From the IMG/VR virus record IMGVR_UViG_3300004805_000048, positions 1 through 20,476 of that record: 20,476 bases of DNA; one strand, 5' to 3'. A model generated the notes under the pieces. It worked only from the letters and a program-made list of their open reading frames with translations. It did no database searches and had not been told where the DNA came from. The position numbers were made by a program, and so were the translations under genes. Shown here in pieces: positions 8,612 through 20,476 of the stretch (positions are counted from its first letter, which is position 1; every line of letters starts with the position of its first letter). This stretch comes from a virus.

Positions 8612-9190
8612 ATGCAATTTAGAACTTGCACAAAATGCAGGGCGCAAAAGCCCCTCGAGCAATTTAGCCTAAATTCAAGAAATAAGCAAGATGGTAGGCA
8701 ACCAAAATGCAAAGATTGTGTAAAACAATATCGAATTGATAATGCAACACAGATTAAAAACAAAAGTAAAGAATATTGCAAAAATAATTCGGATAAAGCC
8801 ATTTTAAGAGCTTCTGAATGGGCTAAAAATAATCGTAAACGCTCCAATGCAATTAAAGCTAAATGGCGTTTAAATAATTCCGAAAAAATGGAGGCTATCC
8901 GCAAAGAATGGGATAAAAATAATCCCGATTATAGAGCTTCTCAATGCAGAAAATATCAAGCATCAAAATTAAATTCTGTGCCTCTATGGGCTAATAATAA
9001 AAAAATGCGTGAAATATATAAAGAATCTCGCAGACTTACATTAGAAACTGGTACTCAATATCACGTTGACCATATTGTGCCTTTAATCTCTAACTTAGTC
9101 TGCGGACTCCATTGTGAAGCAAATTTACAAATATTACGTTTTGATGAGAATGTAAAAAAGGGCAATCGCCTTTGGGTTGATATGCCCTAA
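8612..9190 (+). CDS. HNH homing endonuclease-like protein, opposite strand (192 aa)
   Basis: The only plus-strand gene. Residues 6-36 form a zinc-ribbon-like pair (CTKC ... CKDC), residues about 50-115 are a basic Asn/Lys/Trp-rich helical region with repeated W-x-NN words, and the C-terminus holds an HNH core: HVDHIVPL (151-158), CGLHCEANLQIL with Asn171, and EN..KGN near 179-185. Zinc fingers plus HNH is the usual structure of free-standing phage homing endonucleases, which cut a specific DNA site lacking the gene and so spread it. It sits between the major capsid gene (ending 9218) and the 118-aa gene. AAAAGGAG lies about nine bases upstream of ATG. No intron boundaries are visible and both neighbours are intact, so this is a free-standing insertion. 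The target site cannot be told from the sequence. Confidence 0.85.
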   Translation: MQFRTCTKCRAQKPLEQFSLNSRNKQDGRQPKCKDCVKQYRIDNATQIKNKSKEYCKNNSDKAILRASEWAKNNRKRSNAIKAKWRLNNSEKMEAIRKEWDKNNPDYRASQCRKYQASKLNSVPLWANNKKMREIYKESRRLTLETGTQYHVDHIVPLISNLVCGLHCEANLQILRFDENVKKGNRLWVDMP

Positions 9191-9217: not shown

Positions 9218-10321
9218 TTAAATCCCACTATATCGAACAACGGCATAAGGTCGTTTTAACATGACCCCTGCTGTGGCATTGGAGTAGTCTTCTACATACG
9301 CTTTAGCTTGTTTTTCAACGCCAAGTGCTTGGAACTTAGCTGGAACAACTTGTACCCAAGTACGGCTGTCATCAGAAGCACCATCTTCAACGTGTTCTGC
9401 GTAGAGGTAGAACACGTTAGCACCACCGTTAGCATAGTTCAATTGAGGAGCTGAGATAACACGCAATTTAGCGTAAGTCTTGTTCAACCAGTCACGAACT
9501 GAAATACCAAAGTCAGATGTAACTGACAAGTATTGATAAGCATCAGTAGGTAAAGCCAATGTCAATTCTGCATCTTCAGGATTGATAGTATCTTGTGATT
9601 GAGTTTGCAATTGAGCAGCAGCAACACGAATGTCAGCTACGATTTGCAAGAAAGACTTGTTAGCCCACAATGTTGAAGAACCTGTGCCAGTTGCAGCTAC
9701 AGTAACGTAAGCTGGCAATGCAGGGTCATTCAAGAAACCGTAAGTTAAGTTGTTACCACCGTTGTAACCATTGAAACCAACTAAGTTACGTTGAATTTCC
9801 AATGATAGAGCAGCAGAAGCACGTTTTTCAGCAGAAGTGCTTACACGAATACGAGCAGCACGAGCTTCTTCTAAAGAACCTACTTTGATACCTTTTTCAA
9901 AACGGATAACAGTTCTACGAACAAAGTTAGTGTTCCATGAAGCTAGTGGAACGTTTGTGTAGTCACCGTATGGTAAAGCGTTACCGATTGGTTCCAAGAT
10001 ACCTTGAACGATTTCTTCATCTTCCCATGAACCAGTTGTAGTAATACCAACCAAATCGTCAATTTTACGAGCAGCAGTAATTACTTTAACAAAACCAGGC
10101 AACCAGTTTTGCAAGAATTGAACTGGAGTGGTCATAGATGGTGAAGTAACATCAGCTTGATTGCCACTATCCATCGCCCAGTTAGCCATTGTCTTAACTT
10201 GCTTGTCGGTAAAGTTAATACCAATATCGCTCAAGTCAGCAAAGTTAGCTACGTCTTTTTCATCCATTGCCAACGCACGAACTTGGCGTGGTGCAATGTA
10301 ACTACGTTCTTGTGATTTCAT
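9218..10321 (-). CDS. Major capsid protein (367 aa, DUF2184-like)
   Basis: A 367-residue protein starting MKSQERSYIAPRQVRALAMD and ending MLKRPYAVVRYSGI. Residues about 55-115 include TTPVQFLQNWLPGFVKVITAARKIDDLVG and GSWEDEEIVQGILEPIG; then SWNTNFVRRTVIRFEKGIKVG, a long helix (EARAARIRVSTSAEKRAS), and PTDAYQYLSVTSDFGISVRD. This matches the DUF2184-type major capsid proteins, which have the HK97 fold (spine helix and P- and A-domains). Location directly after the cement protein and after the protease/scaffold gene agrees. The ribosome binding site AAGGA overlaps the cement gene stop. The first 20 to 40 residues may be removed by the prohead protease, which is inference. It is the most abundant protein expected in the virion. 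Confidence 0.9.
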   Translation of the reverse strand: MKSQERSYIAPRQVRALAMDEKDVANFADLSDIGINFTDKQVKTMANWAMDSGNQADVTSPSMTTPVQFLQNWLPGFVKVITAARKIDDLVGITTTGSWEDEEIVQGILEPIGNALPYGDYTNVPLASWNTNFVRRTVIRFEKGIKVGSLEEARAARIRVSTSAEKRASAALSLEIQRNLVGFNGYNGGNNLTYGFLNDPALPAYVTVAATGTGSSTLWANKSFLQIVADIRVAAAQLQTQSQDTINPEDAELTLALPTDAYQYLSVTSDFGISVRDWLNKTYAKLRVISAPQLNYANGGANVFYLYAEHVEDGASDDSRTWVQVVPAKFQALGVEKQAKAYVEDYSNATAGVMLKRPYAVVRYSGI

Positions 10322-10334
10322 AATTATTTATTCC

Positions 10335-10847
10335 TTAGTCTGTGATACGGATAGCAGCTAAACCAGTTGCAGATTGTGGATAGTTCCACACTACGCAATT
10401 AGGGATAAGAGCATTACCTGTTGTTGCAGAAGAACCTGGAGCTACTGCTGACAATACACCAGTTGTAGTGTTGTATTGAACAATATCGCCAATGTTAGCA
10501 GCACCAACAAGAGTAACAACGATTGTACCCATTGTTAAGAACTCAGCCTGTGTGTAACCTGATAGGTACAATGTTGGGTCAAGTGGGTCACCAACTACAG
10601 GACCATAAGATGCGTAAACTTTTGGGTTTACCAAGATACCAGCAAATACTGAAGTACCTGAAACAACTGTACCGCCTTGAGTAGCTACGTTAGTAGTATT
10701 TGATTTAGTAAATGCTAAACCGATAGTACCACCGTTAGAGTCAAGTGCTAATGTATCCACACGTTGAGGACCGTCAACAATTAATTCGCCTGGAATACCA
10801 AAGCCGAGATTAACATTGACTGTAGATTGAAATGTTGCAGCAGCCAT
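10335..10847 (-). CDS. Capsid cement/decoration protein (170 aa)
   Basis: A beta-rich protein starting MAAATFQSTVNVNLGFGIPG, followed by ELIVDGPQRVDTLAL, IGLAFT and a Gly/Thr/Ala-rich remainder that ends GLAAIRITD. The 'FQ.TV....GFGIPGELIVDGP.RV' beginning is a pattern I associate with structural cement proteins (Gp24-like) of phages. They bind on the capsid surface and stabilise it after expansion. Its place between the protease/scaffold gene and the major capsid gene is standard for such proteins. GGAAGG, which overlaps the scaffold stop, lies nine bases before the ATG. It has no membrane segment or signal peptide. Confidence 0.8.
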   Translation of the reverse strand: MAAATFQSTVNVNLGFGIPGELIVDGPQRVDTLALDSNGGTIGLAFTKSNTTNVATQGGTVVSGTSVFAGILVNPKVYASYGPVVGDPLDPTLYLSGYTQAEFLTMGTIVVTLVGAANIGDIVQYNTTTGVLSAVAPGSSATTGNALIPNCVVWNYPQSATGLAAIRITD

Positions 10848-10849
10848 GA

Positions 10850-11419
10850 TTATTTACCTTCCAAAAAACGTTTTACAAAATTGTTCTTGCGAGTAGCTGT
10901 TGAATCCATAGCTACAGCACTTGAAACACCTTTACCTTGCAAGAAAGCATTTAAGAAGGTAATACGATTTTCCTTCGGAGCTTCCACACCAAGTTTTTTC
11001 AAGCCATATTTAGCCATTTTGTCCAAATCCATTTCTGAATGGTCAAACGCACCGATATGTTTTGAAAGTTTGTCATAGAGTTTAGATTTTTCAGCAATCT
11101 TACGCTCTACTTGAGCAGCGATAGCAGCAGCATCCATACCTGCACCACGTTCGCCTTCTTTTTCTTCTTCCTTCTGACCGCCTACGCCATATTCTGCGCC
11201 TTCTTCATCTTCGGCTTCGCCATCAGGTTTTTCTGTGTCGCCATCAGGTTTGGTTTCATCTTCATCAGCTACAGCTTCTTCACCTGCTGAACCGAAAGAT
11301 TGACCCGTTAATTCTTGAATTTTTGCCAATTTTGGCATGACTTCTTCAAGGAATTTGTGAACTTCCTCTAGGGTCATAGTAGGCTTCTCGCTACCTACTT
11401 CTTTGTTTTCTTCAGCCAT
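10850..11419 (-). CDS. Nested scaffold protein from internal start (189 aa)
   Basis: An in-frame ATG at residue 372 of the fusion is preceded by AAGGAG with a nine-base gap. This is as good as or better than the ribosome binding sites of most real genes here, and it falls exactly where the DUF2213 domain ends and the acidic scaffold part begins ([12 protein letters not shown]). The product would be 189 residues: acidic, low in complexity around residues 45-95, and helical at the C-terminus. Lambda Nu3 inside gene C is the classic case of a separate scaffold made by an internal start within a protease gene. That this one is used is inference, but the fit of site and domain border is strong. 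Confidence 0.68.
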
Positions 11420-12532
11420 GTTAAAAAGCTCCTTATTATCTACTGTAAAAGTGAAATGGTCTAATACTGCTACATCAGAACCCATGCGTCCTTGTTCGAC
11501 TAGGGCTAGATGATTGCCTCTGATTTCTCGTTGCACATAGTCATAAGCTACACCGTCATAAGTACCAGGTGCGTATTCGTATCTGCAACGATAACCGCAG
11601 GACAATTCTTTTTTACCGTTAGCGATAAGATTACTCATCGCTTCGGAAAATACTTTGATGTTACCTTTAAGATATTCACCGTCAAAGTAAACATCCTCAC
11701 CAATAACACCTTGAATACCTTTTGCTTCAGCAGGAGTTAAACCTTCATCTTCGCTGCCAAGCATAACGTGATTATCAATCCAGGGGAGCAACTTGAATGA
11801 GTTAATACACTCCTCAGTTGATAGTTCTTCTGCTGGACGATATACGTTATAAATTTTATCTTTTTCACATTCAGGTGAAATTGAACCGCCTGAATATTGG
11901 AAAATACCCATTTTGGATAATGGATTGTCTTTTACTTCAAACCAACCGTTTGTATCGTATTCACGTTTATCCATTGCTGAAGCGTTCGCCTCAGCTTTTT
12001 CGGCAATTTCTTCTTCTTCCCCGTCAATTTTGTGAAACAGGGGATAGGGTGCATCTTCAATCGTTGCCCAAACAAATTCGCTGTGTTCGTCATTTAATTC
12101 AGGTTTAAATTCACCATCGTTACATCCAAACAAACGAACCTTGCCTTCTTCATAAATTAATTGCAGTCCAGTTTCAGGAACGTGCATTGTTTCTTCACGA
12201 GATTCACGAATAGCACCTTCAATAGCTGATTCGCCTTCTTCAACGTGACCGCCAGGAAAGCCCCAAGAATCATCTTTGGTACGTTTTAACCAAAGGATTT
12301 TGTCATTATCTGTATAAACAATAAACGCAACAATTTTAGAATCAGGTTCTTCTTTTAAATCACGCTTATGTGACTCATGTTCTGTTTCGGTTTCTTCTTC
12401 ATCAACCGCAGCGCATTTTCGAGCATTTTGATAAGAAGCTGCGATAGATTGATTAAGCGGATGACCAGCTTTAATCATCTCACGGATATTCTCTTGAATA
12501 ACTTCTTTTGAACAACCTGATTTGAGTGGCAT
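10850..12532 (-). CDS. Nudix hydrolase - DUF2213 prohead protease - scaffold fusion (560 aa)
   Basis: Three parts are visible. Residues 1-40 are a basic helical N-terminal region starting [20 protein letters not shown]. Residues about 64-165 are a Nudix domain; its box reads G95, E101, R109, E110, E113 and E114, with Met116 where Gly is usual. Residues about 192-365 match DUF2213, a prohead-protease-related family; DNH (His255), LSCGY (Ser311) and GNHLALV (His341) are a plausible Ser-His-His set. From about 372 on the protein is acidic, Glu-rich and helical, as expected for a scaffold, ending with the basic helix [12 protein letters not shown]. The prohead protease would cut the scaffold to leave room for DNA. 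The Nudix role is unknown; it may trim nucleotides or act as a capsid cargo. The start overlaps the upstream stop (TAATG). Confidence 0.82.
11405..11436 (-). promoter_or_regulatory. Internal ribosome binding site for nested scaffold
   Basis: Within the fusion gene the minus strand reads AATAAGGAGCTTTTTAACATG. AAGGAG sits nine bases before the ATG at 11419, which starts a scaffold-like open frame in the same frame as the fusion. The codons there encode the linker DNKELFN, so no known domain forces this sequence. Confidence 0.65.
12038..12343 (-). other. Nudix domain within the 560-aa fusion
   Basis: This covers residues about 64-165. It includes [18 protein letters not shown] and [14 protein letters not shown], followed by the box ending RESREET. 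The four Glu/Arg positions used for metal binding and catalysis are present (R109, E110, E113, E114; also E101). The Gly near the end of the box is Met116 and the small hydrophobic positions are changed (Ser111, His117). The substrate cannot be read from sequence. Confidence 0.8.
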
Positions 12533-12894
12533 TAGATTACCCTACCTGTTTGAAACGGAATATTAGTAACGTTTAGAATTACTGTTGCTTCTCTAGTATT
12601 GCCTTCATTAGTAATAAATAAAGGACGAATTGTGTAAAATTGATTAGTAGCACCTGAAGGAACTGTACCGCCTGAAATTTGAACTGAAATTACTTTACCT
12701 GTTGCTGCTACTACTCCATCAGGAAAGGTTACTGGCGCACCATTGATTGCTTGACCTGCAAAAGTTAGACCTGTTTGGTCTGAAGTAATAGAAGTAATGG
12801 ACGTAATAATTTCATTTGTGTCTAAGATATGGGTACAGTCAATATCGTACCAAATAACTTCTGTCGTTCTTTTTTCTAAAATGTAATTATTCAT
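12532..12894 (-). CDS. Small Ig-like/fibre-associated protein (120 aa)
   Basis: A 120-residue protein starting [20 protein letters not shown], with [40 protein letters not shown] and [20 protein letters not shown]. The 'W-Y-D-x-D...ItSits...GlT' start and the beta sandwich-like spacing of VISVQIS and ATVILNV resemble small Ig-like proteins encoded next to capsid or fibre genes in other phages. Its function is unknown; a capsid decoration or fibre partner is possible. The start overlaps the stop of the large repeat protein by eight bases and the stop overlaps the start of the Nudix fusion by one base, so the three are translationally coupled. Confidence 0.62.
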
Positions 12895-14797
12895 TTACAG
12901 TCCAATAATCCTGTCTAGGTGATACAATCCAATAATTATTTCTTTGTTCTACATTCCAATTTGTTGCTCTTGGATTTAATTCCCAATAATCTAAACGTTT
13001 TTCTACTTCCCAATAATCTGTTCTTGGAGAAACGTGCCAAACTTTATCCGACAAATTAAAAATAGGAGCGCAAGTATAAATATCTACTGCGTTACTTTGC
13101 TCTACGACTGTAACTATGACATAAGTAGTTTCATTAGTAAAATCTTGAGCAACAGCTTTTTCCGTAACAGAAACGGCTGCTAAAATTAATGCCGATTGTA
13201 AATCTTGTGCATTTGCAATTTCAGCAACAAATACTGGTGCAATAATACCGCTATTTGTAACATCTTGAGCATTAGCAGATTCAGCCACTGCAACATAAGC
13301 AGACATTTGCTCAGAAACTGCATCTGAAGCTAATCCTGATTCAACAATAGAAACAAATGCAGATGCTAATGCCGATTGTGTGCTTTGAGCATTTCCAGTT
13401 TCGTTAATAACTAAATAAGCAGTTATAAATTGAGATACTGTATCTTGTGCGTTTGCAGCTTCTGTTATAGAAGCCTGTGCAATCATATTTTCAGATTGTG
13501 TAGATTGTGCGTTACCAGCTTCACTAATAGTCACGCCAGCAGACATAGTTTCTGATTGTTTATCAGTTGCATTTCCAGCTTCTGATATTGTTACTGCGTC
13601 TACCGCATTTTCTGACTGTGTTGCAACTGCATTTCCTGCTTCTGTCACATTAACAGGAGCAGACATTGCTTCTGAATTTGTATCTAGCGCATTTCCTGTT
13701 TCATTAACAGTTGCGCTTGCTCTCATATTTTCTGATTGAGAATCTTGAGCATTACCAGCTTCATTTACAGTTATTGGAGCAGACATGACTTCTGAGTTCA
13801 CATCTGCTGCATTTCCTGTTTCAGATACTGTTACAGGTGCAGCCAAACTTTCGGATTGCGTGTCACTTGCGTTTCCTGCTTCAGTTATTGTTACTGAAGC
13901 AGACATATTTTCGGAAGTAGTATCGGTTGCATTACCACTTTCGGAAATTGTCACTCCAGCCGTCATATTTTCAGACTGTGCATCTTGAGCATTAGCAGTT
14001 TCAGAAACAGCAGGATTTGCAGCCATCGTTTCTGATTGTGTTGCTTGAGCATTACCAGCTTCTGTGACAGTTACTGGAGCAGCCATAGATTCGGATTGAG
14101 AATCGACTGCATTACCTGATTCAGAAATAATTACAGGAGCGTTCATTGCTTCAGATTGATTATCTAAAGCATTGCCTGTTTCTGTTACGGCTACGCCAGC
14201 AGACATAGACTCAGACTGAGTATCTGTTGCACTAACAGTTTCATTAACTGTTGCTGAAGCAGACATAACTTCGGATTGTATATCTACAGCATTACCCGAT
14301 TCAGAGATAACTGTAGGAACTCTAACAGATTCTGATTGTGCATCAATTGCGCTACCAGCTTCTGTGATAGAAACTGGAGCTGACATTGATTCTGATTGTG
14401 TATCGACTGCGCTTCCTGTTTCCGAAACAGTTACACTAGCAGACATTGTTTCTGATTGGCTATCTTGAGCATTGCCAGCTTCTGTGATTGAAACAGCGTC
14501 AACAGAATTTTCGCTAATAGTATCTTGTGCGTTCCCGCTTTCAGATATAGCAACTGAAGCCTTCATTGATTCAGATTGACTATCAACTGCATTTCCTGTT
14601 TCCGTTATGGTTACAGGCGCAGTCATCAATTCTGATTGTGTATCTACTGCATTTCCAACTTCACTTATATTAACTGCATCTACTGCATTTTCTGATACAG
14701 AATCTACAGCATTACCCGCTTCAGTTATTGCATTTGCATAAACTAATATTAAGTTTCCTGCAATTGCATTGCTTGAAAACGGGTAATTTCCAAACAT
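12887..14797 (-). CDS. Large tandem-repeat protein, 27 x 20 aa plus 9-aa Trp repeat (636 aa)
   Basis: No match to a known function. Residues 1-23 (MFGNYPFSSNAIAG...) are a short hydrophobic beginning like that of small phage structural proteins. Residues 24-563 are 27 uninterrupted copies of a 20-residue unit with the shape (I/V)(T/S)E-x-(G/A)-N-A-x-D-x-Q-S-E-x-M-x-A-x-V-x. Residues 564-585 are a partial copy and linker, and 586-636 are a second repeat in which Trp recurs every nine residues. It is acidic, Asn/Ala/Ser/Thr-rich and has no cysteine-rich or membrane part, so it is likely an elongated fibrous protein exposed on the virion. It is encoded next to the tail-fibre-like gene and the head genes. 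It has homology-prone 60-base repeats, so length may vary. A fibre or head filament role is inference. Confidence 0.8.
   Translation of the reverse strand: MFGNYPFSSNAIAGNLILVYANAITEAGNAVDSVSENAVDAVNISEVGNAVDTQSELMTAPVTITETGNAVDSQSESMKASVAISESGNAQDTISENSVDAVSITEAGNAQDSQSETMSASVTVSETGSAVDTQSESMSAPVSITEAGSAIDAQSESVRVPTVISESGNAVDIQSEVMSASATVNETVSATDTQSESMSAGVAVTETGNALDNQSEAMNAPVIISESGNAVDSQSESMAAPVTVTEAGNAQATQSETMAANPAVSETANAQDAQSENMTAGVTISESGNATDTTSENMSASVTITEAGNASDTQSESLAAPVTVSETGNAADVNSEVMSAPITVNEAGNAQDSQSENMRASATVNETGNALDTNSEAMSAPVNVTEAGNAVATQSENAVDAVTISEAGNATDKQSETMSAGVTISEAGNAQSTQSENMIAQASITEAANAQDTVSQFITAYLVINETGNAQSTQSALASAFVSIVESGLASDAVSEQMSAYVAVAESANAQDVTNSGIIAPVFVAEIANAQDLQSALILAAVSVTEKAVAQDFTNETTYVIVTVVEQSNAVDIYTCAPIFNLSDKVWHVSPRTDYWEVEKRLDYWELNPRATNWNVEQRNNYWIVSPRQDYWTVNE
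12890..13042 (-). repeat. Nine-residue Trp repeat at C-terminus of repeat protein
   Basis: Six tryptophans occur at residues 587, 596, 605, 614, 623 and 632, exactly nine apart. The unit reads YW-x-V-x-x-R-x-D or close to it ([51 protein letters not shown]). On DNA the units are 27 bases. It has a different period and composition from the 20-residue repeat that precedes it and may be a trimerisation or binding tip; that is inference. Confidence 0.85.
13109..14728 (-). repeat. 27 tandem 60-bp repeats coding for 20-aa units
   Basis: The region is 1620 bases long, exactly 27 x 60, and no unit has an insertion or deletion. Units are diverged in sequence but keep Asn-Ala, Asp, Ser-Glu and an Ala near fixed positions. 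Units 1, 4 and 19 carry a variant end (SENAVDAV or SENSVDAV), which hints at shuffling of units. It is not a CRISPR array: the period is in protein-coding phase and there are no unique spacers. Confidence 0.9.
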
Positions 14798-15316: not shown

Positions 15317-15534
15317 TTAGCTGCGTCTTGTAACGGAGTTAAATCTTCTGTAGTCCAAAAGTCTTTAGCAAGCATGATGTTTAAATGCTCTTTATTGCGA
15401 GCTACAGTATCAGCCCATTCTTCATCTGATACGGCTTCTGGCTTGTCACCATTGATTAAATTTACAGAGTCAAGTGCTGCGCTGTAGTGACGAGCGATTT
15501 CTTCTGCGGTTGGTTGTTCAATAAGTTCTGACAT
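15313..15534 (-). CDS. Small hypothetical protein after the fibre gene (73 aa)
   Basis: A 73-residue helical, mostly acidic protein (MSELIEQPTAEEIARHYSAA) with EWADTVARNKEHLNIMLAKD in its second half and no membrane segment. Its start overlaps the fibre gene stop by one base (TAATG) and its stop overlaps the membrane protein start. Such a coupled small gene directly after a fibre gene can be a fibre-assembly helper, but I see no motif to prove it. Function unknown. Confidence 0.58.
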   Translation of the reverse strand: MSELIEQPTAEEIARHYSAALDSVNLINGDKPEAVSDEEWADTVARNKEHLNIMLAKDFWTTEDLTPLQDAAK

Positions 15535-17864
15535 TATTTAGCTCCTTTAAGTAAATCAATTTCTGCTTTAAGTTCTTGGATAGACGCAATAAGCAATGGG
15601 ATAAGCTCTGTGTATTTTACAGACAAATAATCTGTTTCATCTTCCTTATCTACACGAACTATATCAATCGCTTCTGGTACTACTTCTTGCACTGATTGAG
15701 CAATTACACCTACGCATGGCTTTTTATCAACATCTGCTTTCCATGTAAATTTAACTGCTTCAATTTTAGCAATATCTTCAAGCGCATGAGTATATGTACC
15801 TGTTACATCTTTAAGTCTTGCATCAGAAGCAGAAGTCCATGCAGTAGCACCATTTGTAAGGTTTACACCGCCAGTAGTTCCACCTACACAAGTAAGAGTA
15901 TTGTACGTTGTACCACCTTTAATATTTGAATTAGAACCAATAGCCCATACAGAAGTAGTTGAGCCTAATGCGCCTGTATATCCTGCGATAACTGGCCCCC
16001 ATCCTGATGCAGCATAACCTAATATTAGGACATTTCCTGAACCATTTTGATTGCCTTGACCCATATAAAAGCTATCTGTATTGGTTCTAATAAATGCAGG
16101 ATTACCATCACCATCTGATAGGACAATGTAGTTAGAAGCTGTACGGATGTCTAGACCGCCTTGATTGCCATTGTAGTTACCTAGGACAGTATTTTTTGCG
16201 CCAGTTGTAACGTAATATCCTGATGGGTAAACAGACCCAGATATTCCAGTTCCAATAAATGTATTTCCTGTACCAGTAGTACTATATCCAGCTCCAGCTC
16301 CAATGAAAGTATTACTTCCCGTAGTGTTAGAATATCCTGCTTGTTGCCCAATAATAATACTTGATGTTCCAGTAGTATTGGAATATGCTGCTTGTTGCCC
16401 AATAAATACATTTGCAGCACCAGTAGTATTTAAGTACCCAGCTTGATACCCTACAGCGGTATTGTTAGATGCTGTAGTATTAGACCCTAAAGCACCCACT
16501 CCAAATGCAGAATTATAATTACCAGTTGTATTTTTTTCTAAAGGACCAAATGAAACCCCAGAATAATCTGCACCCATTGCAGTATTGGCAGTACCTGTGG
16601 TGTTTAAATTAAGTGCTAAATATCCAACAGCAGTTAAAGCTGTGCCAGTGGTATTGCTATACCCTGCTTGATAACCAACGGCAGTGTTGTTAGATGCTGT
16701 GGTGTTTGAATAAAGAGATTGTATACCTACGGCTGTGTTGAAATTGCCTGAACTAATAGAATATAAAGAACTACCACCAATAGCAGTATTGTAATATCCT
16801 ACTGCTCCACTAGCTCCGTACATAGCCTGATAGCCTAAAGCAGTATTTTGTGGAGTTCCTGTATTAGCAATATTATATGCAGCTTGATAGCCCACTGCCG
16901 TATTATAAGAACCTGTGGTGTTTGAAGAAAGTGCATTATCCCCTACTGCAGTATTATAATTACCTGTAGTGTTGTTATATAAAGAAGCATTTCCAACACT
17001 AGTGTTACTTGCTCCTGTAGTATTAGCATATACGGCTCTATAACCTATTGCAGTATTGTTAGATGCAGTAGTATTGGCTTGAAGTGCGCTTGAACCAATA
17101 GCAGTGTTATATGAGCCAGTTGTAGTATAATAAAGCGCATTAGAACCACACATCGTGTTACTAGAACCACTGGTGATTGAATATCCTGAATATCTACCAA
17201 AAGCGGCATTATAATTTCCTGATGGACCTGTGCCTAAAGCATATTGACCAAAAGCATCTAGAGCTTGACCGCCATTTGCTGAAGCTAAAGCATTATTACC
17301 AACTGCAGTATTATTTGAAACAGCACCAGCACCCTTGCCTACAGTTAGACCATTAATAGATGCGTCAGCTATTGTGCTTAATTTACCTGCATTTGAAAGC
17401 GTCATTAAACTCGTAGAACCTACACCACCATTGTACCAAGTAAATCCGTCAGCAGTGCCTACAGAAAAGCGACCATTGCCAGTGACATAATCCATGACAA
17501 TTCCGTCTGTAAATGTGCCTTGAAACGAACTTGGCGCATAGATTAAATCTTGTGTGACTACTTTTGTAGCAGGATAATCTACCCAAACGTTTTGAGTACC
17601 GCTTGTAAATGCAACTAAGGAACCGCCATTTGATGAAGCTAATACAGTAGTACGAGCAAGCGTAATACCGCCTGAACCGATTGTACCAATACCTACTTCC
17701 CAATTAGTGCCATATTGGTCAGCAATAACGTAGTAACAAGTATTATTTGCACCAATAGATGATGAGAAAGATTTATAGCCTGTAACAGCACCTAAAAGAT
17801 TAACCGTACCCGTTCCTGGTGAAACGCAGGTTTCCTGAACTCTATCAGCGACAACAAATGACAT
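15534..17864 (-). CDS. Fibre protein with YadA-like repeats and S74 chaperone (776 aa)
   Basis: Residues 1-102 (MSFVVADRVQETCVSPGTGT...) form an N-terminal attachment domain common to phage tail fibre proteins. Residues about 185-565 are 17-residue repeats of the form NTAVGxxALxxNTTGxY, as in the YadA head and other left-handed beta roll adhesins, and fit a trimeric receptor-binding shaft. Residues about 676-776 are an intramolecular chaperone of the Peptidase_S74 type: SASDARLKD, then KFTWKADVDKKPCVGVIAQSV and a final helix. S74 domains guide trimer folding and then cut themselves off; Ser680 and Lys685 are the likely dyad. The gene lies within the head module, not near the baseplate. AGGAA precedes the ATG. 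Confidence 0.85.
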   Translation of the reverse strand: MSFVVADRVQETCVSPGTGTVNLLGAVTGYKSFSSSIGANNTCYYVIADQYGTNWEVGIGTIGSGGITLARTTVLASSNGGSLVAFTSGTQNVWVDYPATKVVTQDLIYAPSSFQGTFTDGIVMDYVTGNGRFSVGTADGFTWYNGGVGSTSLMTLSNAGKLSTIADASINGLTVGKGAGAVSNNTAVGNNALASANGGQALDAFGQYALGTGPSGNYNAAFGRYSGYSITSGSSNTMCGSNALYYTTTGSYNTAIGSSALQANTTASNNTAIGYRAVYANTTGASNTSVGNASLYNNTTGNYNTAVGDNALSSNTTGSYNTAVGYQAAYNIANTGTPQNTALGYQAMYGASGAVGYYNTAIGGSSLYSISSGNFNTAVGIQSLYSNTTASNNTAVGYQAGYSNTTGTALTAVGYLALNLNTTGTANTAMGADYSGVSFGPLEKNTTGNYNSAFGVGALGSNTTASNNTAVGYQAGYLNTTGAANVFIGQQAAYSNTTGTSSIIIGQQAGYSNTTGSNTFIGAGAGYSTTGTGNTFIGTGISGSVYPSGYYVTTGAKNTVLGNYNGNQGGLDIRTASNYIVLSDGDGNPAFIRTNTDSFYMGQGNQNGSGNVLILGYAASGWGPVIAGYTGALGSTTSVWAIGSNSNIKGGTTYNTLTCVGGTTGGVNLTNGATAWTSASDARLKDVTGTYTHALEDIAKIEAVKFTWKADVDKKPCVGVIAQSVQEVVPEAIDIVRVDKEDETDYLSVKYTELIPLLIASIQELKAEIDLLKGAK
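15537..15842 (-). other. Peptidase_S74 intramolecular chaperone domain
   Basis: C-terminal about 100 residues of the fibre. SASDARLKD (678-686) carries Ser680 and Lys685, five residues apart, as in the Ser/Lys dyad of the endosialidase family chaperones; GVIAQSVQEVVPEAI and a C-terminal coiled-coil-like helix (ELIPLLIASIQELKAEIDLL) are also typical. Cleavage before Ser680 would release about 97 residues and leave a fibre of about 679 residues. Confidence 0.82.
16170..17312 (-). repeat. 17-residue YadA-like fibre repeats
   Basis: Units of 17 residues (51 bases), for example NTSVGNASLYNNTTGNY and NTAVGDNALSSNTTGSY, run from about residue 185 to 565 of the fibre. NTTG and N-T-(A/S/F)-(V/I/F)-G anchor each unit. 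Some are shortened or widened (for instance around 333-360 and 430-446), so the array is not perfectly regular. Confidence 0.82.
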
Positions 17865-18648: not shown

Positions 18649-19488
18649 TTAATCCTCTAAATCAAAGTTAAGAACGGGCTTACAAATACAACGACAATTG
18701 GGTAAGTCACCAGGAAGCCCATGAACATCACTTCCGTACATCACTCCAATGAATGGCGGGTCATCGAAAGAATATTCGTTCCCACTCATTTTTATATGCA
18801 ATTCACGAGGCTCTTTTCCACCACCTGAATGAATCCAAATGAACTTTTTTACACCCAAAGTCTTTAGTCTAGTTGTATTAATAGACTGATAAGCCTTACG
18901 AGTTTGGTCTAAAGCAACAAGCCTTGCGTGTCTTACGTTGCCTTTATATTTCTTCGTTAGGAAAGGAACTAAATCTTCCATCCCTTTGCCTGTTGTAATG
19001 GAGCGCATTACCTGACCTTGCACTTCATTCAAGAACTTATAAGGTATAATTTTAATCAAGTTTGCAGCCTCTAATGTGCTTGCCTTGATGACCTCTTGTA
19101 ATTGTTCATTTGAAAATGAAGTATCTATGCTTAAATCAGGTAATGCTTCTTTTAACGAATTACGCAAAGTAATCGTTGAGTTCTTTATGGTGCGCTGAAT
19201 CATACGCTCAGTAGCACTCTTGGCAATCTCATCAAAGCGAGGCTGCCACTTTCTTAATAACCAATTAAGCAACATACGGGATTGACTTGCCAATGAAGCA
19301 TCCATTGCTTGACCGTAATGGTTCTCACTGAAAGTCTTTTTCAACTCTCTTTGAACGTCACGAAACATTAACCCTAGTTCATTGACAATAGGCTTTGCAT
19401 AATCGGTTGAGATACCAGCGTTAGGACGCAGCGCACCAGCAACGATACTATTCTTTTTCGGTTTCATCGTCATCTTCAGGCTCATCAT
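18649..19488 (-). CDS. MuF-like head morphogenesis protein (279 aa)
   Basis: The C-terminal part has WIHSGGGKEPRELHIKMSGN, then EYSFDDPPFIG and, near the end, DVHGLPGDLPNCRCICKPVL. A Trp/Gly-containing stretch followed by H..M.G and a PNCRC end is the hallmark of the MuF/SPP1 gp7 family (PF04233). The N-terminal half is helical and includes VALDQTRKAYQSINTTRLKTLG. MuF proteins are minor head proteins linked to the portal and enter the prohead. The start is ambiguous: ATGs at 19488, 19485, 19473 and 19467 are in frame and none has a clear Shine-Dalgarno sequence; the first overlaps the small acidic gene by 41 bases. A later start at 19473 or 19467 may be right. Confidence 0.85.
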   Translation of the reverse strand: MMSLKMTMKPKKNSIVAGALRPNAGISTDYAKPIVNELGLMFRDVQRELKKTFSENHYGQAMDASLASQSRMLLNWLLRKWQPRFDEIAKSATERMIQRTIKNSTITLRNSLKEALPDLSIDTSFSNEQLQEVIKASTLEAANLIKIIPYKFLNEVQGQVMRSITTGKGMEDLVPFLTKKYKGNVRHARLVALDQTRKAYQSINTTRLKTLGVKKFIWIHSGGGKEPRELHIKMSGNEYSFDDPPFIGVMYGSDVHGLPGDLPNCRCICKPVLNFDLED

Positions 19489-19603
19489 CCCATGCGCCAG
19501 TAGCTAACAACGTTTCATCTTCCTCTTTTTCTTTAGGATTGAAAAACTCTTTATCAGATTTAGTAGGAACTTTAAAATCAACATCTTTAGGTATGATTAA
19601 CAT
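19448..19603 (-). CDS. Small acidic protein (51 aa)
   Basis: A 51-residue protein not large enough for usual ORF cut-offs. Its sequence begins MLIIPKDVDFKVPTKSDKEF and ends with an acidic run around DDEPEDDDETEKE. Its ATG overlaps the peptidase-like gene stop by one base (TAATG) and AAAGG lies ahead of it, so it is very likely translated. It lies between that protein and MuF. The acidic end is like those of small head or DNA-mimic proteins, but I know no family. Without it there would be a 110-base gap here, so its presence is supported by gene packing. Confidence 0.68.
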   Translation of the reverse strand: MLIIPKDVDFKVPTKSDKEFFNPKEKEEDETLLATGAWDDEPEDDDETEKE

Positions 19604-20476
19604 TATTTAGCCTTTCTAAATAACTCATCAACATGGTTTTCTAATTCAATAGGTAAAGTTCCACGTTTATAGTTAGGAGCTGTAACCATTGCTGCCAATT
19701 CAGCATCGGCTTCTTTAATATTTGAAGCAGCATATTCACTAATATTGTGTTTAACCCAATCATAAACTGAGCTAGACTCACCCATTTTACCACCAGTTTG
19801 CAAGTCTTTTAATAATTTAGCTAATTTAGCTGGTGAATTTATATGTTTTTGCATACCTAAAGCATGAGCCATTTCGTGAACAATGGTTGCTCTCATTGGA
19901 TTTTCTTCTTCTGAGCTAATAGACCATCTTGGTTTACCGTCTGTTTTACGTTTTTCAGCACGAGCTTTTTGCTCTTTTAATTCAGCTTCATCACGCAATT
20001 TGATTGAGAATATTCCTTTATCGCCATGTTGCCAAGCTGTGCCATTAGTTCCACGTTTTGCAGGAGAAGCTCCAATACTTACTTTCGCATTGCTTAATGC
20101 AGATTTAATATCAAATCCAGCATTAGTCAAATCTGAAAGAGCATTATCAACTTCTACTAAAACTTTTTTAAACTTTTTAGCAGTAGGAGTATTTGAATTA
20201 ACATTAAATTGCTGATTGAATAAAGAGCTATTTGAGCTATCTCTTAACTGCCAATATTCTTTTTTTGCAATTTCAGCTTTTTCTGTATTGCCTTCAGCTT
20301 GATATTTTTGAATTTCGTGTAATTTTTCTATAGCTTCTGCTTGGTTTTTCTTTTTATCTACGCCATTTTCAAAGCCAAGACCAAATTTTTCAGTAAAATG
20401 TTTAGTTATTTCGTCAGAATTTGCAAAATTAGATTCTGATTTAGATTTTTCTTTAGATTTTTCTGATTTAGATGTG
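19603..20476 (-). CDS. Protein with metzincin-like zinc peptidase motif, 5' end outside window (at least 290 aa)
   Basis: The frame is open from the stop at 19603 to the right edge, so the start lies outside. The beginning visible here is Ser/Lys-rich (TSKSEKSKEKSKSES) and linker-like, followed by a helical region about 100 residues long. Near the C-terminus is HEMAHALGMQKH, an HExxHxxGxxH zinc-binding motif (metzincin type) at 19843-19878. A Glu/Lys/Arg-rich stretch and a Trp lie before it, and NHVDELFRKAK ends the protein. The gene precedes MuF, so it could be the end of a portal or minor-head fusion whose peptidase domain acts on head proteins or is injected. The position of any Met-turn was not determined. 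A TTG at 20130 is an unlikely start because the frame stays open well beyond it. Confidence 0.75.
   Translation of the reverse strand, partial: TSKSEKSKEKSKSESNFANSDEITKHFTEKFGLGFENGVDKKKNQAEAIEKLHEIQKYQAEGNTEKAEIAKKEYWQLRDSSNSSLFNQQFNVNSNTPTAKKFKKVLVEVDNALSDLTNAGFDIKSALSNAKVSIGASPAKRGTNGTAWQHGDKGIFSIKLRDEAELKEQKARAEKRKTDGKPRWSISSEEENPMRATIVHEMAHALGMQKHINSPAKLAKLLKDLQTGGKMGESSSVYDWVKHNISEYAASNIKEADAELAAMVTAPNYKRGTLPIELENHVDELFRKAK
19843..19878 (-). other. HExxHxxGxxH zinc-binding motif (metzincin-like)
   Basis: The minus strand encodes HEMAHALGMQKH: two His and a Glu at HExxH, a Gly three residues after the second His, and a third His four residues after the Gly. This is the exact metzincin spacing rather than a plain HExxH. 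Confidence 0.8.

Follow-up and report, generated by a model that had tools for sequence, protein, structure and literature searches.

A Nudix domain fused to a predicted DUF2213 head protease, with a conserved nested scaffold start and a probable cleavage motif

Introduction

Why does a phage gene for a predicted head protease carry a Nudix hydrolase domain ahead of the protease, and could that domain be set to work as an enzyme inside the head? The question is raised by one minus-strand frame in a viral sequence record, all 20,476 bases of which were analysed and are referred to below as the window. The frame combines a Nudix part, a DUF2213 part and an acidic C-terminal part. An earlier note on this DNA had interpreted it as a Nudix-protease-scaffold fusion with an internal scaffold start, from which the protease might separate the Nudix part.

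The gene and its setting

The frame encodes a protein of 560 aa and 62.6 kDa (Table 1), in which every residue singled out in the earlier note was present (G95, E101, R109, E110, E113, E114, M116, H255, S311 and H341). The assignment of the N-terminal part held up in the homology search that had been named beforehand as its test, with a Pfam match to NUDIX (PF00293) of 57.9 bits against a cut-off of 21.1, and the Foldseek matches of this part were Nudix hydrolases without exception. Likewise, DUF2213 (PF09979) was matched at 145.6 bits against a cut-off of 22, with the proposed acidic scaffold part following in the same frame. A further module, missed in the earlier note, occupies residues 1-42 (consensus MPLKxGxSxxxIxxNIxxxxxAGxxxxQAxAxAY); it also occurs as a free-standing protein (phrog_2423, 52 aa) and caps DUF2213 proteins both with and without a Nudix domain, and is possibly a capsid-targeting tag.

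Directly downstream of the frame lie genes for a cement protein (PF22758) and the major capsid protein (PF09950). A Mu F-like protein is encoded upstream, and a contractile tail sheath farther along. The adjoining of protease, cement and major capsid genes is an order common to the DUF2213 phage records compared, and the gene is best taken to encode the head maturation protease of a phage with a contractile tail.

Table 1. Features of the fusion gene and of the neighbouring head genes, with positions in the window
Feature	Position	Strand	Basis or remark
Nudix-DUF2213-scaffold frame	10850-12532	minus	560 aa; Pfam and PHROG matches
N-terminal short helical module, residues 1-42	12407-12532	minus	phrog_2423, 5e-11
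Nudix domain, residues 68-165	12038-12331	minus	Pfam 1.4e-15; Foldseek; median dN/dS 0.047
Nudix box, residues 95-117	12182-12250	minus	residue check against homologues
Predicted Nudix/protease cut, A186-M187-D188-K189	11966-11977	minus	motif; same border in other Nudix fusions
DUF2213 protease domain, residues 190-359, with H255, S311 and H341	11456-11965	minus	Pfam 1.8e-42; invariant triad; model pLDDT 94.6; best PDB folds herpesvirus proteases
Nested scaffold Shine-Dalgarno, AAGGAG	11429-11434	minus	9-base spacer to ATG
Nested frame from ATG at residue 372 (11419-11417), acidic scaffold	10850-11419	minus	189 aa, 20.6 kDa, pI 4.8
Predicted scaffold cut, G465-M466-D467-A468	11129-11140	minus	motif
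Predicted scaffold cut, A541-M542-D543-S544	10901-10912	minus	motif
Cement (decoration) protein	10335-10847	minus	PF22758; profile match
Major capsid protein	9218-10321	minus	PF09950, phrog_264; profile matches
Predicted major capsid protein cut, A49-M50-D51-S52	10166-10177	minus	equivalent to A62-M63-D64-S65 of Pa193
Mu F-like head morphogenesis protein	18649-19488	minus	upstream of the protease gene
Possible further cut, AMDA, residues 61-64 of Mu F-like protein	19297-19308	minus	motif

The DUF2213 domain as a predicted head protease

The residues H255, S311 and H341 are invariant across 84 diverse DUF2213 sequences. Structure modelling, suggested in the earlier note, was successful in part: the full-length AlphaFold model was poor (pLDDT 50.5) and usable for the Nudix fold only, whereas a model of the protease domain built from the 84 sequences reached a pLDDT of 94.6. 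Among 350,542 PDB chains the best folds for this domain were herpesvirus proteases (EBV, KSHV and HCMV; E 0.025, prob 0.92-0.93, TM 0.3-0.4), a match of fold only and not a strong one, and in BFVD the model was linked to HK97-type prohead proteases. Both matches agree with the invariant His-Ser-His, and a head protease, with proteolytic activity predicted from sequence and model, is the best explanation of the domain. A lambda C-type (S49/ClpP) peptidase was also considered and rejected, as Pfam gives DUF2213 only and the best folds are those of the herpesvirus proteases.

A closely comparable protein is gp24 of the Pbunavirus Pa193, deposited as a 'scaffolding protein' (PDB 9b40, chain G), which matches window residues 186-541 at 4e-53. 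It likewise consists of DUF2213 and scaffold, in the same cement/capsid gene order and with an internal SD-ATG at residue 195, but is without Nudix. Its authors label gp24 as scaffold only, mentioning neither a protease nor a nested start, and report that a helix-turn-helix, a remnant of the scaffold, remains inside the mature head at the five-fold vertices (PMC11042391). Thus, scaffold fragments can stay inside the head.

A nested start signal for the scaffold

The ATG at residue 372, with AAGGAG nine bases upstream, had been put forward as the start of a nested scaffold; both elements were confirmed, and their pairing is beyond chance. Of 16 distinct relatives, 15 write the Lys-Glu pair ahead of Met372 as AAGGAG and one as AAGGAA, compared with AAGGAG in 1/107 of the other Lys-Glu pairs of the same genes (Fisher p 3.6e-17, relatedness ignored). 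The spacer between the Shine-Dalgarno (SD) sequence and the ATG varies in its residues and also in length (L018, L019, L025 and L035), and the ATG is retained.

For a survey of the family, four collection scans together with phage records supplied 353 DUF2213 genes, which formed 97 clusters at 60% identity, and an SD-ATG was counted as strong if its duplex with the 16S tail was -5 kcal/mol or better. Such a start was present 10-50 residues past the second catalytic His in 92 of the 97 clusters, at a median distance of 30 residues and with a median product of 212 aa, compared with 48 of 478 other 41-aa windows (10%) of the same genes. Clustering at 50% and 40% identity gave 43/44 and 11/11, respectively. 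It could be argued that the internal SD-ATG is an unused by-product of Lys-Glu, Glu-Gly or Gly-Glu followed by Met, and indeed synonymous shuffling, which preserves the protein, kept an SD-ATG in 43 of the 97 clusters on average, so that the signal lies partly in the amino acids. However, no shuffle exceeded 52 clusters, and the near-uniform AAGGAG of the relatives persists though the intervening residues differ in kind and number; we therefore regard this explanation as extremely improbable.

In terms of sequence, the nested start is established as a conserved signal across the DUF2213 family, and it belongs to the whole family and not to the Nudix fusion specially. A separate scaffold protein is very probably translated from it, although a nested gene is annotated in none of roughly 20 annotated DUF2213 phage records. 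M187 was weighed as a further nested start and rejected, the Shine-Dalgarno being absent in the window and in most relatives; it could be a relic of an older start.

A protease with a nested scaffold is, as a kind, known from lambda and the herpesviruses. The lambda scaffold Nu3 is nested, in frame, within the 3' half of C, which encodes the head protease (NC_001416). The likeness extends to an internal in-frame SD start at the protease/scaffold border, but the lambda peptidase is of the S49 (ClpP-like) type, with a fold unrelated to DUF2213. Herpesvirus UL26/UL26.5 joins a Ser-His-His protease to a nested in-frame scaffold; here the short form is made from an internal promoter, there is no Nudix domain, and the fold match to DUF2213 is moderate. 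When lambda C was run as a control (NC_001416 4000-6300, L377), the strongest internal SD-ATG was codon 309 (AGGAGG, -9.7), at the protease/scaffold part, and no Shine-Dalgarno was found at the GenBank start of nu3, codon 239 of C, which had been intended as the positive control. The annotated lambda nu3 start may be wrong.

A probable cleavage motif

The scaffold parts of the family and the N-terminal arms of the capsid proteins have a short motif in common. Across the 97 scaffold halves [AG]MD[SA] was counted 103 times where 2.9 would be expected, and the protease cores yielded a single copy. Of 91 capsid proteins, the N-terminal 90 residues contained 49 copies (0.7 expected) and the other 21,717 aa none. 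As the motif was derived from these sequences, the capsid structures, examined afterwards, constitute an independent check. The model of the Pa193 capsid protein begins at residue 66 (PMC11042391), and the motif of this protein, SAMD64/S65 (the slash marks the predicted cut), places the cut one residue before the first modelled residue. The deposited capsid chain of E217 begins at the same residue; its first 65 residues are invisible, for which the authors allow either cleavage or disorder (PMC10329688). Furthermore, the Pa193 portal (L379 188-2485) carries the motif AMD72/S73 upstream of its first modelled residue, and the first 93 residues of this portal were neither visible nor detected by mass spectrometry (PMC11042391).

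Because the motif is enriched in both scaffold and capsid arm, and because two capsid structures begin one residue past the predicted cut, [AG]-[MQ]-D/[SA] is probably the cleavage site of the DUF2213 protease family. The missing capsid N-termini of Pa193 and E217 could alternatively be due to disorder. That the motif is repeated in both partners would also suit a motif that binds capsid protein or scaffold and is never cut, but a motif that binds in the mature shell would be kept and visible, while the capsid chains of the two structures start just beyond it. This makes a pure binding role very unlikely.

The Nudix domain and its border with the protease

Within the Nudix box pattern GX5EX7REUXEEXGU every Glu and Arg is present, and the only departure, M116, stands at a non-catalytic Gly position that varies among relatives (M, E, Q or G). 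The residues G95, E101, R109, E110, E113 and E114 are invariant in the 29-30 homologues covering these positions, a single mismatch at 101 being due to a mis-aligned Nudix-less homologue. The median dN/dS in the window clade is lower for the Nudix domain than for the protease (0.078) and the scaffold (0.21), with dS near saturation for several pairs. On the evidence of these statistics the Nudix domain is under strong constraint and, since its dN/dS is the lowest of the protein and its box residues do not vary, it is very likely an active enzyme. No NCBIfam equivalog reached its cut-off for this part, and no specific substrate class was given; the model search gave no more than weak matches to RNA pyrophosphohydrolase and MutT.

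The sequence between Nudix and protease resembles the proposed cut sites. The window has SAMD188/K189 at this border, and other Nudix fusions have GMDG, AQDS, AQDK, AMDE, ALDE and ANDT. [AG][MQ]D is found at most 40 aa before the protease domain in five of seven Nudix fusions, against 0.26 expected, although the seven are not all independent; a wider pattern, picked after viewing the data, covers 7/7. The AMD border motif is absent from the Certevirus-like fusions. The suggestion that the protease separates the Nudix part from the rest is thus supported by a cleavage-like border motif in independently made fusions, and release of the Nudix domain is likely. However, a P1' Lys after [AG]MD was seen at only 1 of 139 scaffold sites, a rarity which implies that the cut at D188/K189 may be slow or absent.

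Repeated fusion to head proteins

The three-part fusion, of which the earlier note knew no described case, is already catalogued and not new. PHROG 3778, 'head maturation protease', matches residues 1-461 at 1.2e-130, spanning module, Nudix and DUF2213, and has the same make-up; a Nudix function, the nested start and the cut motif are not given there. In the Pfam architectures DUF2213 is associated with PF00293 (PMC8770471), and UniProt lists a 'Nudix_Hydrolase domain containing protein' with 83% identity in the protease part. The search for N-terminal Nudix fusions among DUF2213 proteins, as proposed in the earlier note, was productive: IMG/VR holds 34 relatives, the full-length ones mostly 55-100% identical; cultured phages have, at the same position in the genome, a gene for a Nudix-DUF2213-acidic protein (Pantoea PdC23, Klebsiella Chronis, RothC/D and the Yersinia vB_YenM group, e.g. 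vB_YenM_29.18); and further examples occur in prophage-like loci of Paraburkholderia and Rhizobium. These finds rule out a fusion unique to the window virus. No functional description of the fusion was found.

When the presence of Nudix is mapped on a tree built from 103 DUF2213 domains, 6 changes are required, at least five of them forced by well-supported branches, with gain and loss not distinguishable in every case. Judged from this tree, Nudix has been joined to DUF2213 more than once, at least about five times. One loss lies inside the window clade: the closest Nudix-less relative (L027 5947-7185, 66% identical) has neither module nor Nudix, yet STAMDK still precedes its protease and the nested start with AAGGAG is retained. 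The Certevirus-type fusions (PdC23, Chronis, RothD and vB_YenM_29.18) share the three-part order, the genome slot and the nested SD-ATG with the window gene; they differ in having acquired Nudix separately according to the tree, in matching DUF2213 at only 6e-7, and in lacking the N-terminal module.

Nudix domains are also found on other head proteins, at the C-terminus of the portal in Bcep1 and on the Mu F protein in Pam4, and the Pa193 portal ends in an inorganic pyrophosphatase domain (PF18823, 3e-43). The portal-Nudix of Bcep1/Bcep781, the Mu F-Nudix of Pam4 and the portal-InPase of Pa193 are like the window gene in placing a phosphate-bond hydrolase on a head-interior protein, with a different carrier.

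A proposed route for the Nudix enzyme into the head

In combination, the data are probably best read as a two-product gene whose products co-assemble and are cleaved at the motif, so that Nudix is freed inside the procapsid. The two-product layout of the gene and the cut motif are the elements supported by the statistics of the sequences. The gene would make a long protein (module, Nudix, protease and scaffold) and a short one (the 189-aa scaffold from ATG 372), and both would co-assemble with the capsid protein through their common scaffold part, whereby a few copies of the protease, and with it Nudix, would be enclosed per procapsid. The protease would then cut at [AG]-[MQ]-D/[SA], in the scaffold at D467 and D543 and in the capsid N-terminal arm at D51, probably also in the Mu F-like protein and possibly in the portal. 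A cut at the related site D188/K189 would free the enclosed and very likely active Nudix enzyme of ~21 kDa.

It is conceivable, though rather unlikely, that Nudix never acts in the head, the full-length protein being a Nudix enzyme of the infected cell, with substrates such as dNTPs, ADP-ribose or RNA caps, while the fusion would merely secure late expression. Free-standing Nudix enzymes are common in phages, and the weak RNA pyrophosphohydrolase and MutT similarities offer no substrate that points to the virion. On the other hand, Nudix was joined repeatedly to DUF2213 and also occurs in the portal and Mu F fusions of Bcep1 and Pam4; the repeated choice of head proteins as carriers suggests that place matters.

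The domain might instead be a structural passenger, a folded cap that holds the protease inactive or sets its copy number until cut, with catalysis irrelevant. Its place immediately ahead of the protease, from which a cut-like motif separates it, and the existence of the close relative L027 without Nudix would fit this role, but the retention of all catalytic residues and the lowest dN/dS of the protein speak against it, and we hold it to be distinctly unlikely.

Going beyond the proposed release in the procapsid, the scaffold could serve as a loading device in several lineages: an enzyme placed ahead of the protease would be carried in, freed, trapped under the DNA and delivered to the next host, where Nudix would destroy a nucleotide (such as a defence signal or an ADP-ribose/NAD product) before phage genes are expressed. 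This extension is speculative and, at present, unlikely.

Novelty and implications

To judge from the literature searched, what is new is the nested start across the family, the structurally supported cut motif and the repeated fusion of hydrolases to head-interior proteins; no account of a packaged Nudix or of a nested scaffold in DUF2213 genes was found in the non-subscription papers covered. Hundreds of cultured phages, among them the therapeutically used Pbunaviruses, have DUF2213 as their predicted head protease, under the labels 'hypothetical', 'structural' or 'scaffolding' protein. With a nested start and a cleavage motif that can be read from sequence, DUF2213 would become a defined maturation system for which cut sites are predicted, the motif would explain the 65 residues missing from two capsid structures, and the family would become a third, separately built case of protease and scaffold in one frame, beside lambda and the herpesviruses. 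The recurrence of Nudix and related hydrolases on head-interior proteins makes the packaging of enzymes alongside phage DNA a hypothesis that can be tested.

Other frames in the window

Further frames were noticed in the window. Between the Mu F-like and protease genes lies a minus-strand frame (12887-14797) for a 636-aa protein of many near-identical ~20-residue units (SESMSAPVTITEAGNAVD...), for which Pfam gave no match. Another minus-strand frame (15534-17864), inserted among the head genes, encodes a repetitive, fibre-like protein of 776 aa with a C-terminal Peptidase_S74 chaperone domain. Downstream of the capsid gene, on the opposite, plus strand (8612-9190), a 192-aa frame contains Cys pairs and an HNH-like HVDHIVPL, and is probably a homing endonuclease. 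Finally, a 175-aa frame on the minus strand (19603-20130) carries the zinc-protease signature HEMAHALGMQKH and has a weak match to Peptidase_M10 (0.01).
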